A DNA stretch of 64,000 bases from Sphaerochaeta sp. (GTDB lineage Bacteria > Spirochaetota > Spirochaetia > Sphaerochaetales > Sphaerochaetaceae), in contig JAKVPA010000005.1 in NCBI GenBank assembly GCA_022482495.1, positions 1 through 64,000 on the forward strand. The letters are read 5' to 3'. How positions within the stretch are numbered: the stretch's first letter is position 1; every line of letters starts with the position of its first letter. Made by a program: the position numbers and the translations under genes. Shown here piece after piece: positions 3,061 through 10,868 of the stretch. The notes beneath the pieces were generated by a model. That model was not told the origin of the DNA. It worked only from the letters and a program-made list of their open reading frames with translations, and ran no database searches.

Positions 3061-4600
<1,540 letters not shown>

Positions 4601-4698
4601 GGAAAGAAAGGGCGCCGGAGGGCCTCACACCCGAAGGCGGAGACTGACGTACGTAGTACAGCCGGTGAGAGTCCGGCAATTCCTCAGGTTTCCACAAA

Positions 4699-4729
4699 AC
4701 TTTTCTTCTCTTCTCTTATAGACTGTCAA
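4699..4729 (+). repeat. 3' strand of 16S rRNA processing stem
   Basis: Reverse complement of 2838-2868 (see that entry). It ends directly before the first base of tRNA-Ile, so cleavage here would separate 16S from the tRNA. Confidence 0.85.
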
Positions 4730-4730
4730 G

Positions 4731-4804
4731 GGGACTGTAGCTCAGGTGGTTAGAGCGCGTGCCTGATAAGCACGAGGTCATAAGTTCAAGTCTTATCAGT
4801 CCCA
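4731..4804 (+). tRNA. ileT: tRNA-Ile (GAT)
   Basis: A 74-base cloverleaf in the 16S-23S spacer. Acceptor arms GGGACTG and CAGTCCC pair fully. The anticodon arm is CGTGC-CTGATAA-GCACG with anticodon GAT, and TTCAAGT lies in the T arm. The discriminator is A4804 and CCA is not encoded, so it must be added after transcription. tRNA-Ile(GAT) in the spacer is a common bacterial arrangement. Confidence 0.97.
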
Positions 4805-4833
4805 TGTTGATTTTTTACAGTTGAGCGAGAGGA

Positions 4834-4848
4834 CGGGAAGGATGATAT

Positions 4849-4856
<8 letters not shown>
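4834..4856 (+). repeat. 5' strand of 23S rRNA processing stem
   Basis: 4834-4856 pairs with 7781-7803 over 23 positions with one G-G mismatch and one G-U pair. The inner eight pairs are the terminal helix of mature 23S; the outer part is a precursor extension. Confidence 0.8.
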
Positions 4857-7780
<2,924 letters not shown>

Positions 7781-7790
<10 letters not shown>

Positions 7791-7803
7791 ATCATCGTTC
7801 CCG
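7781..7803 (+). repeat. 3' strand of 23S rRNA processing stem
   Basis: Complement of 4834-4856. Between here and 5S lies one more small hairpin (GTCCGT/ACGGAC at about 7829-7846). Confidence 0.75.
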
Positions 7804-7854
7804 CCGTCGCGGGGAGGCTCGGGGGGCGTCCGTCCTGCGGACGGACCCGGAGCC

Positions 7855-7972
7855 GGCCCGGTGGCCACAGCAAGGCGGACATACCCGTTCCCATCCCGAA
7901 CACGGTCGTCAAGCGCCTTCGCGCCGATGGTACTGCGGTTCTTCCGCGGGAGAGTAGGTAGCTGCCGGGCCC
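7855..7972 (+). rRNA. rrf: 5S ribosomal RNA
   Basis: About 118 bases. The terminal stem GGCCCGG...CCGGGCC closes the molecule. Conserved segments CCCGTTCCCATCCCGAACAC, GCGCCGATGGTACTGC and GGGAGAGTAGGTAGCTGCC are present in order. It lies about 65 bases after 23S and directly before the operon terminator. Ends are accurate to about 2 bases. Confidence 0.95.
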
Positions 7973-8097: not shown

Positions 8098-9107
8098 ATG
8101 CGAATCACGTTGAAGAATCTGAAGCGCTCCTATGGCCAGCTTCACGCGGTGAACGATGTCAGCCTGTCGATTCCCTCCAATACCATATTCGGAATCATCG
8201 GAAAAAGTGGTGCAGGGAAATCAACATTGGTGCGTTTGGTGTCACTGTTGGAGAAGCCGGATTCCGGAGAAGTATACTATGACGACAAACGTGTCGATAA
8301 TTTGTCAAAAAACGAACTCATGATGCGACGCCGTCATATCGGCATGATCTTTCAGAACTTCAACTTGTTTTCAAGTCGGAACTGCGCCCAGAACATCGCA
8401 TATCCCATGGAGATCAACGGGTACAAACCGGAAGAGATCAAATCGAGGGTGCATGAGTTGCTTTCCTTGGTGGATTTGGAAGGCAGGGAAAATGCCCGTA
8501 TCAGCACGCTTTCCGGAGGCCAGAAACAACGGGTCGCCATTGCGCGCGCCCTTTCCTGCCGTCCGGACATTCTGTTCTGCGATGAGGCGACCAGCGCGCT
8601 GGATCCCCAGACGACCAGCTCAATTCTGGATCTGATCAAGGACATCCAGAAGCGATGAGCCTGACGGTGGTGATGATCACCCACCAGATGGAAGTGGTCC
8701 GCGACACCTGCAAGGAAGTGGCAGTCCTGAATGACGGAGAGGTGGTGGAACAGGGCAAGGTTGCCGATATCTTCAGTAATCCGCAGAATCCTGTCACCAA
8801 AGATTTTCTTTCCCGTCTGTTGGGGCATGACGAGCGGACCAGCAGGGTATACCAATGGTCCCACCAGAAAGGATCGTACGTGCTTCGCTTCCCCGGCAAC
8901 GTGACCGACCAGCCGATCATCTCGCAACTGAGCAGGAAGTACGGAGTGGATTTCAACCTCCGTGCCGGTGGCGTCCAGGTGGTGGATGGCGAGGAGATCG
9001 GGACGATGATGGTGGATATCCTCAGCCCTGATGAAACAGTGGTTCCGTCCATCCTGAAGGATTTACGTGCGCAGGGCGTCATCGTGGAGGATCATCATGG
9101 GAGCTAA
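8098..9107 (+). CDS. metN: Methionine ABC transporter ATP-binding protein MetN, interrupted by a frameshift at about 8655
   Basis: The ATPase of the D/L-methionine importer is split over two frames. Codons from 8098 give 186 residues with Walker A GKSGAGKST (35-43), signature LSGGQ (138-142) and Walker B C-D-E-A-T (Asp162, Glu163), ending at TGA 8656-8658. The next frame starts at ATG 8655 with MSLTVVMITHQME (the H-loop) and ends with the regulatory NIL domain. Joined, the protein is about 336 residues, normal for MetN. One lost base near 8654 (for example CGC ATG becoming CGATG) explains it. No classic slippery heptamer is present. Two translationally coupled half-proteins via ATGA are possible but would be unusual. 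Confidence 0.85.
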
Positions 9108-9762
9108 GCTTTGGATTCTGGTAGGCCAGGCCACCTGGCAGACGTTGGTCATGGTGTTTTTCTCAACATTGTTCAGTCTGATTCTTGGGCTCCCTTTGGG
9201 GATTTTGCTTACCGTCACCAGTCCGGAGGACCAGGGTGGCATCAGCCCGCGCCCGGTGATGAACAACATCATCGGACGTATCGTCAACGTTCTTCGTTCC
9301 TTCCCGTTCATCATTCTGATGATTCTGCTGTTCCCCCTTGCCCGGTTGATCTTGGGCACCAGCATCGGGACGGCAGCCACCATTGTGCCGCTTTCCATCG
9401 CGGCGGCTCCGTTTGTCGCCCGTGTCATCGAAAGCGCCTTGAAGGAAGTGGACCCCGGTGTCATCCAGGCGGCCCGCGCCATGGGATCGACCAACAGCCA
9501 GATCGTCTTCAAGGTGATGATCCCCGAGGCGATGCCGTCGCTGGTAAGCGGTGTGACGCTGACCATCATCAATTTGATCGGCTATTCCGCCATGGCGGGA
9601 GCCATCGGTGGTGGAGGCCTGGGAGACTTGGCCATCCGGTACGGATACCAACGGTTCCGCGGGGACGTGATGTTCGTCTCCGTCGTGGTGATTCTGGTGC
9701 TGGTCGAAGTGATCCAGATGATCGGCAACCGGATCGCGGCCAAGATGATGGCAAAGCGGTAA
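9097..9762 (+). CDS. metI: Methionine ABC transporter permease MetI
   Basis: A 221-residue inner-membrane permease with about five helices and the EAA-type loop V-I-Q-A-A-R-A-M-G-S followed by V-M-I-P-E-A. Further family marks are V-N-V-L-R-S-F-P-F and S-A-M-A-G-A-I-G-G-G-G-L-G. The chosen ATG at 9097 is preceded by GTGGAGG and overlaps the metN end by 11 bases, implying translational coupling. It forms the membrane channel for methionine with MetN and the binding protein MetQ. Confidence 0.93.
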   Translation: MGAKLWILVGQATWQTLVMVFFSTLFSLILGLPLGILLTVTSPEDQGGISPRPVMNNIIGRIVNVLRSFPFIILMILLFPLARLILGTSIGTAATIVPLSIAAAPFVARVIESALKEVDPGVIQAARAMGSTNSQIVFKVMIPEAMPSLVSGVTLTIINLIGYSAMAGAIGGGGLGDLAIRYGYQRFRGDVMFVSVVVILVLVEVIQMIGNRIAAKMMAKR

Positions 9763-9828: not shown

Positions 9829-9866
9829 TTGCATCTCTTCGTAAAATGATGTATGTTGTCGACAAC
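9829..9866 (+). promoter_or_regulatory. Putative internal promoter with palindromic operator between metI and metQ
   Basis: -35 TTGCAT at 9829-9834, 17-base spacer, -10 TATGTT at 9852-9857. A perfect 12-base palindrome GTTGTCGACAAC (9855-9866) overlaps the -10 and the expected transcription start near 9864, a typical repressor position. It would allow metQ to be transcribed separately from metNI. The regulator is unknown. Confidence 0.6.
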
Positions 9867-9887
9867 GTAACAAAAAGGAGAGAGATC

Positions 9888-9956
9888 ATGACGAATACAT
9901 CCATCATCATTCGTTCCACCATGATGTCTCTCATGATGATGCCCGTCAGGGCATAA
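9888..9956 (+). CDS. Candidate methionine-rich leader peptide (attenuator) upstream of metQ
   Basis: A 22-codon ORF directly behind the internal promoter, with an excellent ribosome binding site (AAGGAG, 7 bases from ATG). Six of 22 codons are ATG: Met1, 12, 13, 16, 17 and 18. Codons 12-18 read M-M-S-L-M-M-M. It lies in the untranslated leader of the methionine-binding protein gene and ends at TAA 9954-9956. Classical amino-acid leader peptides (his, trp, leu) are built this way: ribosomes stall on clustered codons when the charged tRNA is scarce. Function is inferred from position, codon content and nearby complementary segments; the peptide itself probably has no role. Confidence 0.6.
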   Translation: MTNTSIIIRSTMMSLMMMPVRA

Positions 9957-10044
9957 CATCTATACTTCAAATCTATCTTTATTTTTTCGGTCTCAAGGAA
10001 AAGCGCTTTGCTTTTAATACCTGTAATCTGTCTCTGAGGAGAGA
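9927..10044 (+). promoter_or_regulatory. Putative attenuator structures in the metQ leader
   Basis: TCTCTC (9927-9932), immediately after the first Met pair of the leader ORF, is complementary to GAGAGA of the leader's own SD and to the metQ SD region GAGGAGAGA (10036-10044). ATGCCC-GTCA-GGGCAT (9939-9954) forms a 6-bp hairpin over the last Met codon and the first base of the stop. CATCATCAT (9902-9910) can instead pair with ATGATGATG (9933-9941), so the structures compete. TCTCT-GAGG-AGAGA (10031-10044) can hide the metQ SD. No classical terminator is obvious, which favours control of translation. Confidence 0.45.
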
Positions 10045-10049
10045 TTTGT

Positions 10050-10868
10050 ATGAAAAAAACATTTGTCATCGTGTTGTCTGTATTGTTGGTGTTGGGTTCT
10101 GTCGCGTTCGCGCAGGGCACCAAGGAATCCGCGGCTCCCGTTAAAAACCAGGTGCTGAAAGTCGGCGCCACGCCGGAACCGCATGCCGAGTTGCTCAATC
10201 TGGTCAAGGATGACCTGGCCGCCCAGGGCATTACGCTGGATGTCATCGAGTTCACCGATTATGTGACGCCGAACGAGGCGTTGGAGAGTGGCGAGATTGA
10301 TGCCAACTACTTCCAGCACATCCCGTACCTTGAGAGCTTCAACAAGGAGAAGGGCTATCATCTGGTCAATGCCGGGGGCATCCACGTAGAGCCGTTCGCT
10401 GTGTACTCCAAGAAATACACCAAGCTTGCTGATCTTCCCAACGGTGCTACCATCGCCATCCCCAACGATCCGACCAACGAAGGCCGCGCATTGCTGCTTC
10501 TGCAGAGCGCAGGGCTCCTGAAGCTGGCCGATGGAGTTGGTCTGACCGCCACTCCGCTGGACATCGCTGAGAACCCGAAGAACTTCAAGTTCAAGGAGAT
10601 CGAGGCCGCCTCTCTTCCCCGTGTCCTTTCCGATGTTGATGCCGCGACGATCAACGGCAACTACGCCATCCCCGCCGGCTTGATCGCCACCCGGGACGGT
10701 CTGTTCATCGAAGGCGCCGACAGCCCGTACGTCAACGTTGTCGCCGTCAAGGCCGGCAACGAGAACGACCCGCGTGTCGTCGCGCTGGTCAAGGCGCTGA
10801 AGAGCCAGAAAGTGGCTGACTACGTCGCCAAGCGCTATCCCAACGGGGAAGTCGTCCTGGTGAAATAA
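10050..10868 (+). CDS. metQ: Methionine-binding protein MetQ (NlpA family)
   Basis: A 272-residue periplasmic substrate-binding protein feeding MetNI. Family marks are V-G-A-T-P-E-P-H-A-E-L, F-T-D-Y-V-T-P-N-E-A-L, D-A-N-Y-F-Q-H-I-P-Y-L and N-G-N-Y-A-I-P-A-G-L. The N-terminus is a signal peptide ending V-A-F-A-Q-G with no lipobox cysteine, so the mature protein appears not to be lipidated, unlike most Gram-negative MetQ. The SD is GAGGAG, 8 bases from ATG. It lies 287 bases after metI behind its own promoter and Met-rich leader, and a strong terminator follows. Confidence 0.92.
   Translation: MKKTFVIVLSVLLVLGSVAFAQGTKESAAPVKNQVLKVGATPEPHAELLNLVKDDLAAQGITLDVIEFTDYVTPNEALESGEIDANYFQHIPYLESFNKEKGYHLVNAGGIHVEPFAVYSKKYTKLADLPNGATIAIPNDPTNEGRALLLLQSAGLLKLADGVGLTATPLDIAENPKNFKFKEIEAASLPRVLSDVDAATINGNYAIPAGLIATRDGLFIEGADSPYVNVVAVKAGNENDPRVVALVKALKSQKVADYVAKRYPNGEVVLVK

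Follow-up and report, generated by a model that had tools for sequence, protein, structure and literature searches.

Methionine genes are usually controlled by SAM riboswitches, T-boxes or MetJ. The E. coli trp, his and leu attenuators rely on a short ORF with tandem cognate codons, which has its own promoter, is accompanied by RNA hairpins and precedes genes for the cognate amino acid, and tnaC senses free tryptophan through its peptide. Leader peptides for methionine have been proposed in two groups of bacteria. In Campylobacter jejuni, MetL (20 aa, 3 Met codons) stands before metBA as a proposed Met leader whose RNA was reported to end shortly 3' of the stop codon (PMC3847290); its translation was seen by Ribo-seq initiation-site profiling, and a further Met leader, CJsORF19 (MMYQMR), was proposed before the metQ-type gene Cj0772c (PMC11955535). 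Reported orthologues of MetL come from C. jejuni, C. coli and C. doylei alone. In Streptomyces lividans, the leader MSTTSDRTPATEATTTPGARCMCRRMCAF, termed metL, is a predicted leader peptide before metNIQ (PMC8079986). Outside methionine, the uORFC-8-2 motif before cysS of Rhodobacterales is predicted to act by ribosome-mediated attenuation (PMC8632094). Met leaders as such have thus been put forward before, in Campylobacter for metBA and metQ and in Streptomyces for metNIQ, and an earlier note on the DNA studied here, which knew of no Met version for the binding protein of a methionine importer, needs correcting in view of Cj0772c and the S. lividans operon. A literature search that covered few subscription journals returned no description of the spirochaete element considered below, or of amino-acid leader peptides in spirochaetes.

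The element was noticed in a 64-kb stretch of Sphaerochaeta DNA (the window). A dedicated promoter and a very short 5' UTR precede a leader ORF of ~17-25 codons, and the RNA carries two hairpins, P1 and P2; the element is understood here, with a probability of about 0.78, as a cis-acting ribosome-mediated attenuator that would sense methionine through the decoding of Met codons. At the level of sequence, it shares with ribosome-mediated attenuators a short ORF, led by a Shine-Dalgarno sequence (SD), ahead of genes for the cognate amino acid and a run of cognate codons near the end of that ORF. MetL and CJsORF19 of Campylobacter are alike in placing a short Met-codon leader before genes of methionine synthesis or for a methionine-binding protein; compared by published description, the spirochaete element adds a covarying helix that locks the SD, a hairpin fixed at the final Met codon and several targets. 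The S. lividans metL also is a predicted leader before a methionine importer operon, but it belongs to a leaderless transcript, has few and scattered Met codons and no recognised terminator, whereas the spirochaete ORF is SD-led and carries a tandem Met run. The tandem cognate codons, own promoter, hairpins and cognate-amino-acid genes of the E. coli trp/his/leu type are all represented, with the difference that the conserved spirochaete hairpins are confined to the leader and its stop codon. With tnaC and similar Rho-linked leaders the element shares a G-poor stretch after the leader stop, and Rho is encoded in the window genome; the constant feature, unlike in tnaC, is the run of Met codons. 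The uORFC-8-2 motif similarly involves a conserved uORF whose tandem cognate codons fall in the first stem, but it concerns cysteine, another phylum and a clear U-run terminator.

In the window, metN and metI (9097-9762) lie upstream of metQ, and the features of the leader, all on the plus strand, begin in the metI-metQ gap with the promoter TTGCAT-17-TATGTT (9829-9857; -35 box at 9829-9834, -10 box at 9852-9857, 17-nt spacer). The leader SD, AAGGAG (9875-9880), precedes the Met-rich ORF of 22 codons at 9888-9956, MTNTSIIIRSTMMSLMMMPVRA followed by the stop, in which Met occupies codons 1, 12, 13, 16, 17 and 18. The SD also contributes to the 5' strand of P1, formed by leader SD and start codon (9878-9890), which folding and covariation pair with 9920-9932; this 3' strand, the anti-SD CATGATGTCTCTC, is situated inside the Met-Met-Ser-Leu codons and ends in TCTCTC (9927-9932). 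Hairpin P2, ATGCCC-GTCA-GGGCAT (9939-9954), takes in the last Met codon, the Pro-Val-Arg-Ala codons and the first base of the stop codon, with outer pairs GATG/CATC linking 9935-9938 to 9957-9960. A G-free stretch rich in U, C and A (9957-9988) follows immediately 3' of the leader stop. The gene taken as regulated is metQ (10050-10868), with its SD region GAGGAGAGA at 10036-10044, for the substrate-binding lipoprotein of a methionine ABC transporter; it matches the NCBIfam models MetQ PRK11063 (E 5e-68) and MetQ/NlpA TIGR00363 (E 1e-65), both below the curated cut-offs. The promoter, the Met-rich ORF, its SD and the end hairpin are thus confirmed in the sequence as the earlier note had placed them. 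Chance is a poor account of the ORF: a scan of the window in both orientations returned 12 ORFs of 8-35 aa with an SD, and this one alone has at least 5 Met, the runner-up having 3. The palindrome that the note had pointed out on the predicted start site (GTTGTCGACAAC, 9855-9866) is present in the window, but it is not at that place in the aligned relatives listed, those of the same genus included, and was rejected as a conserved part.

Relatives were compared at several levels of stringency. A DNA search recovered 9920-9960 in several of them, the remaining gap having diverged. The pattern ATGATGCCC-N(2,6)-GGGCA occurs in 79 of 139 Sphaerochaetaceae genomes and its reversed control in a handful; a covariance model, R1, run on 138 genomes of the family, many of them metagenome assemblies, recognises the element in 80. 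Applied to a phylum sample of 393 genomes, R1 gave matches solely in members of the Sphaerochaetaceae, and the named genomes with the element come from that family, mainly from gut and rumen, with the isolate Bullifex porci, which carries two copies, among them. Where the simple hairpin pattern matched within a long ORF (L044, L045) or lacked a Met-rich leader (L099, L100), the match was dropped as chance; one R1 match (L153, E 0.0076) was left out as well. To allow for the shared ancestry of the sequences, the comparisons relied on own-versus-cross controls and on diverse subsets.

The earlier note had called for a conserved Met-rich ORF and covarying stems in the metI-metQ gap of relatives; the ORF is conserved, and P1 covaries. 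A strong SD is present in 63 motif-bearing loci (two further loci, L079 and L097, are without one), and in 62 of the 63 the ATG after the strongest SD is in frame with the Met codons. Lengths at these loci extend from 39 to 57 nt in steps of 3, so that seven lengths occur, all multiples of three. Judged from this comparison of sequences, the leader ORF is under selection as an ORF, its frame being held across length changes of whole codons. Within it, the Met codons are kept: counted back from the Pro codon, Met occupies positions -1 and -2 in all 37 diverse leaders, -3 in 31, and -6 and -8 in 26 each. The Ser and tail residues follow from RNA structure instead, in that the Ser codons shown are all TCN, without any AGY, and the residues 3' of MMMP differ widely (V, A, G, D, E, L, F, S, C, W). 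The promoter recurs in most of the 63 aligned loci, with a TTGCAT(A) box and a CATAAT-like box in the same place, the latter ~20-30 nt upstream of the leader ATG.

Evolution of P1 is that of a helix whose sequence changes freely while pairing is kept, enclosing a variable loop. Over 86 loci, the P1 duplex has an energy of -16.2 kcal/mol within its own genome and of -12.8 kcal/mol across genomes, with none of 20000 permutations as good; the same own-versus-cross signal holds for the 13 copies ahead of genes other than the main metQ set. In a plain MAFFT alignment, 8 of 9 P1 pairs have changed in both partners, with a covariation score above that of 500 of 500 shuffles. The model-fitted alignment of the 86 loci gives 97 double changes where 35 are expected, a comparison in which fitting itself favours structure. 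As positive control in the duplex scan, P1 reaches z -7.1. These results bear on the note's reading of TCTCTC as complementary to the metQ SD: the complementarity exists, but energies and covariation identify the leader's own SD and start codon as its stronger, evolutionarily maintained partner (in the window, -18.5 kcal/mol with the leader SD and -10.9 kcal/mol with that of metQ).

The P2 stem, ATGCCC-N4-GGGCAT, is nearly invariant, while its loop and the residues encoded there vary. It ends at the leader stop codon, which in a few lineages sits in the loop. At one locus, L148, the hairpin reads ATGCGC-TAGC-GCGCAT: a single compensatory change has removed the Pro codon and retained the stem, which argues that P2 is an RNA hairpin rather than a peptide motif. 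The tract behind it is depleted of G, with 21 G among 912 nucleotides at positions 3-18 after P2 in 57 diverse loci (117 +/- 9 expected from shuffled spacers), and a U-rich tail directly 3' of P2 is found in 42 of these 57 loci (8.6 +/- 2.7 in shuffled spacers). P2 plus tail is terminator-like in 32 of the 57, a count for which the shuffle control destroys P2 and so sets the expected value too low; the tail test, with P2 kept, is the fair one. P2 therefore looks like a weak terminator in most loci. In the window, the tract is G-free and not U-rich close to P2, the genus of the window likewise lacks the U-rich tail, and a terminator scan of the window did not call P2 a terminator, from which it follows that intrinsic termination is probably not the whole story in this genome. 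Termination could be intrinsic, by P2 and a U-rich tail, or Rho-dependent, on the G-poor stretch. The spacer between leader and metQ also holds a third hairpin, P3 (e.g. GGTCC-TNA-GGGAC), in many loci of one large genus (g16, L021-L093), and its arms co-change by eye; as an essential part P3 was ruled out, being absent in loci such as L036 and L038.

How such parts could be connected into a switch was weighed against several other designs. The earlier note had proposed a translational attenuation in which TCTCTC masks the metQ SD until a ribosome stalled on the Met codons sets it free. The window sequence suits this idea, in that TCTCTC can pair with the GAGAGA of the metQ SD region, yet the pairing leaves no trace in evolution: the metQ SD does not covary over 30 to 63 loci, own and cross-genome energies are alike (-8.8 and -9.1 kcal/mol; z 0.19 in the duplex scan), and the metQ SDs of several genera pair poorly, down to -2.6 kcal/mol. 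A simulated ribosome stall made the metQ SD easier to open in 16 of 63 loci and harder in another 16, with no consistent direction. Sequestration of the downstream SD by a leader segment, as in leaders of the erm type, was thus not found among these loci, and together with the stronger duplex at the leader SD this makes the design improbable. What does survive from the note is its broader claim of a translated Met-codon leader that would control a methionine gene, supported by the conserved frame, the Met codons, the SD, the promoter, the end hairpin and the copies before other methionine genes. Were the peptide rather than codon decoding the sensor, a nascent chain ending ...SMMMP(xRA) might bind methionine or SAM and so stall in the exit tunnel, in the way that TnaC responds to tryptophan; the conserved C-terminal ...MMMP and three leaders (L025, L030, L082) that end Pro-stop in the manner of TnaC speak for it. 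However, the residues after MMMP vary, L148 loses Pro and keeps the RNA stem, and Ser is explained by anti-SD pairing through TCN codons. Conserved residues independent of RNA structure, known from arrest peptides of the TnaC, SecM and SpeFL type, did not appear in the leaders compared; the constant features are Met codons and RNA structure, and we consider arrest by the peptide unlikely.

Two further readings shift the function from the ORF to the RNA. Two conserved hairpins, the near-invariant sequence of P2 and the U-rich tail behind it might belong to a metabolite- or protein-binding, riboswitch-like RNA in which the ORF is secondary. The frame kept through whole-codon length changes argues to the contrary, and so does P1, whose sequence is free if paired and whose loop is variable, unlike a binding core. 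The locus has no Rfam match at gathering score and no sensible one at E up to 10. A riboswitch-like RNA therefore seems quite improbable. Attenuator RNAs that act in trans are known, rnTrpL for example, and P2 with its U-rich tail resembles the 3' end of an sRNA in many loci, so that the leader transcript might mostly end after P2 and serve as a small RNA in trans or encode a small functional peptide. That every copy with clear context stands directly before methionine genes, and that the peptide is not conserved beyond Met and the RNA-driven residues, renders this the most far-fetched of the readings considered.

The cis-acting attenuator proposed here starts from what comparison shows: the ORF keeps its frame and its Met codons, P1 and P2 are maintained, the tract behind P2 is poor in G, and the element sits ahead of methionine genes. 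With Met-tRNA plentiful, the ribosome would complete the leader and depart; P1 would then close the leader SD, such that no new ribosome disturbs the RNA, and P2 would fold and bring about an early end of transcription, either as the weak terminator with a U-rich tail or by way of Rho on the G-poor stretch. With Met-tRNA scarce, the ribosome would stall on the Met codons, keep P1 open and cover or disrupt P2, and RNA polymerase would continue into metQ. The direction, on at low methionine, is inferred from gene function. A counterpoint deserves mention, as P2 lies beneath the ribosome during termination at the stop codon as well, and the high-methionine state consequently needs release before RNA polymerase escapes. 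The antiterminator would be the ribosome itself and not a competing RNA hairpin. An own-versus-cross duplex scan of leader segments against the spacer and metQ start gave no clear partner for an alternative pairing, and covariation did not reveal mutually exclusive antiterminator and terminator hairpins; no competing antiterminator being found, the scheme is unlike trp and his. Alternative structure beyond P1 and P2 is possible in light of a model-free scan, in which pairing of the 5' UTR plus SD with the spacer showed a weak signal, with p 0.007 before any correction for the 15 tests. More tentatively, and at somewhat less than even odds, we envisage a family-wide methionine regulon built on a single mobile cassette of RNA and ORF. 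Antitermination would fall to the stalled ribosome, P1 would relock the leader start each time a ribosome has passed, and P2, built on the final Met codon, would be the off switch, with no competing antiterminator hairpin involved.

The putative regulon is read from the genes downstream. Among the 86 R1 loci, 73 lie ahead of metQ and 13 ahead of other genes. The latter include metQ paralogues (six loci, with an M20 hydrolase gene adjoining in five), second met ABC operons (two), metA (L167), the O-acetylhomoserine sulfhydrylase gene metY (L151), peptide-transporter genes for an OppA-like binding protein (L094, L096) and one for an HcxA/YbdH-like oxidoreductase (L158). The metA and metY copies score weakly with R1 (E 7e-5 and 2.5e-5), yet both carry the SD, Met codons, P1 and P2. 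Nearly all of these 13 targets serve methionine uptake or synthesis, and its leader suggests a methionine-related role for the L158 oxidoreductase. A single leader cassette before both uptake and synthesis genes would make the Sphaerochaetaceae a ready case of Met-codon regulation and extend amino-acid leader peptides to the Spirochaetota. Met codons are an odd sensor, given that Met also begins every ORF and thus the leader itself; the covarying helix over the leader's own start suggests a rule of one ribosome per transcript, which is directly testable. The window genome has no SAM-I riboswitch (RF00162), SAM-I was found in few Sphaerochaetaceae members (7 of 61), and in motif-less genomes of the family no Rfam element reached gathering score ahead of metQ (20 loci).

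Several observations were made beside the leader itself. Where the next gene is shown, a Met leader stands ahead of a MetQ-like protein and an M20 amidohydrolase at L052, L152, L154, L155, L156 and L159, a pair that possibly accomplishes uptake and cleavage of N-acyl or peptide-bound methionine; the NCBIfam matches of the L152 MetQ-like protein look circularly permuted, the C-terminal part of the profile coming first and the N-terminal part second. Directly upstream of metN, the window contains a complete rRNA operon (16S, tRNA, 23S, 5S) at 3061-7970. The metN gene is itself split into ORFs at 8098-8658 and 8655-9107, in different frames with an ATGA overlap near 8655, and the junction is one continuous frame in relatives whose match spans it; the split may reflect either a one-base indel in the assembly or strain or a genuine frameshift. 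A T-box RNA lies ahead of thrS in the same genome (G000 contig 13, 16864-17098, minus strand; L213), the sole T-box match, with an E value of 4e-20 just below the Rfam cut-off.
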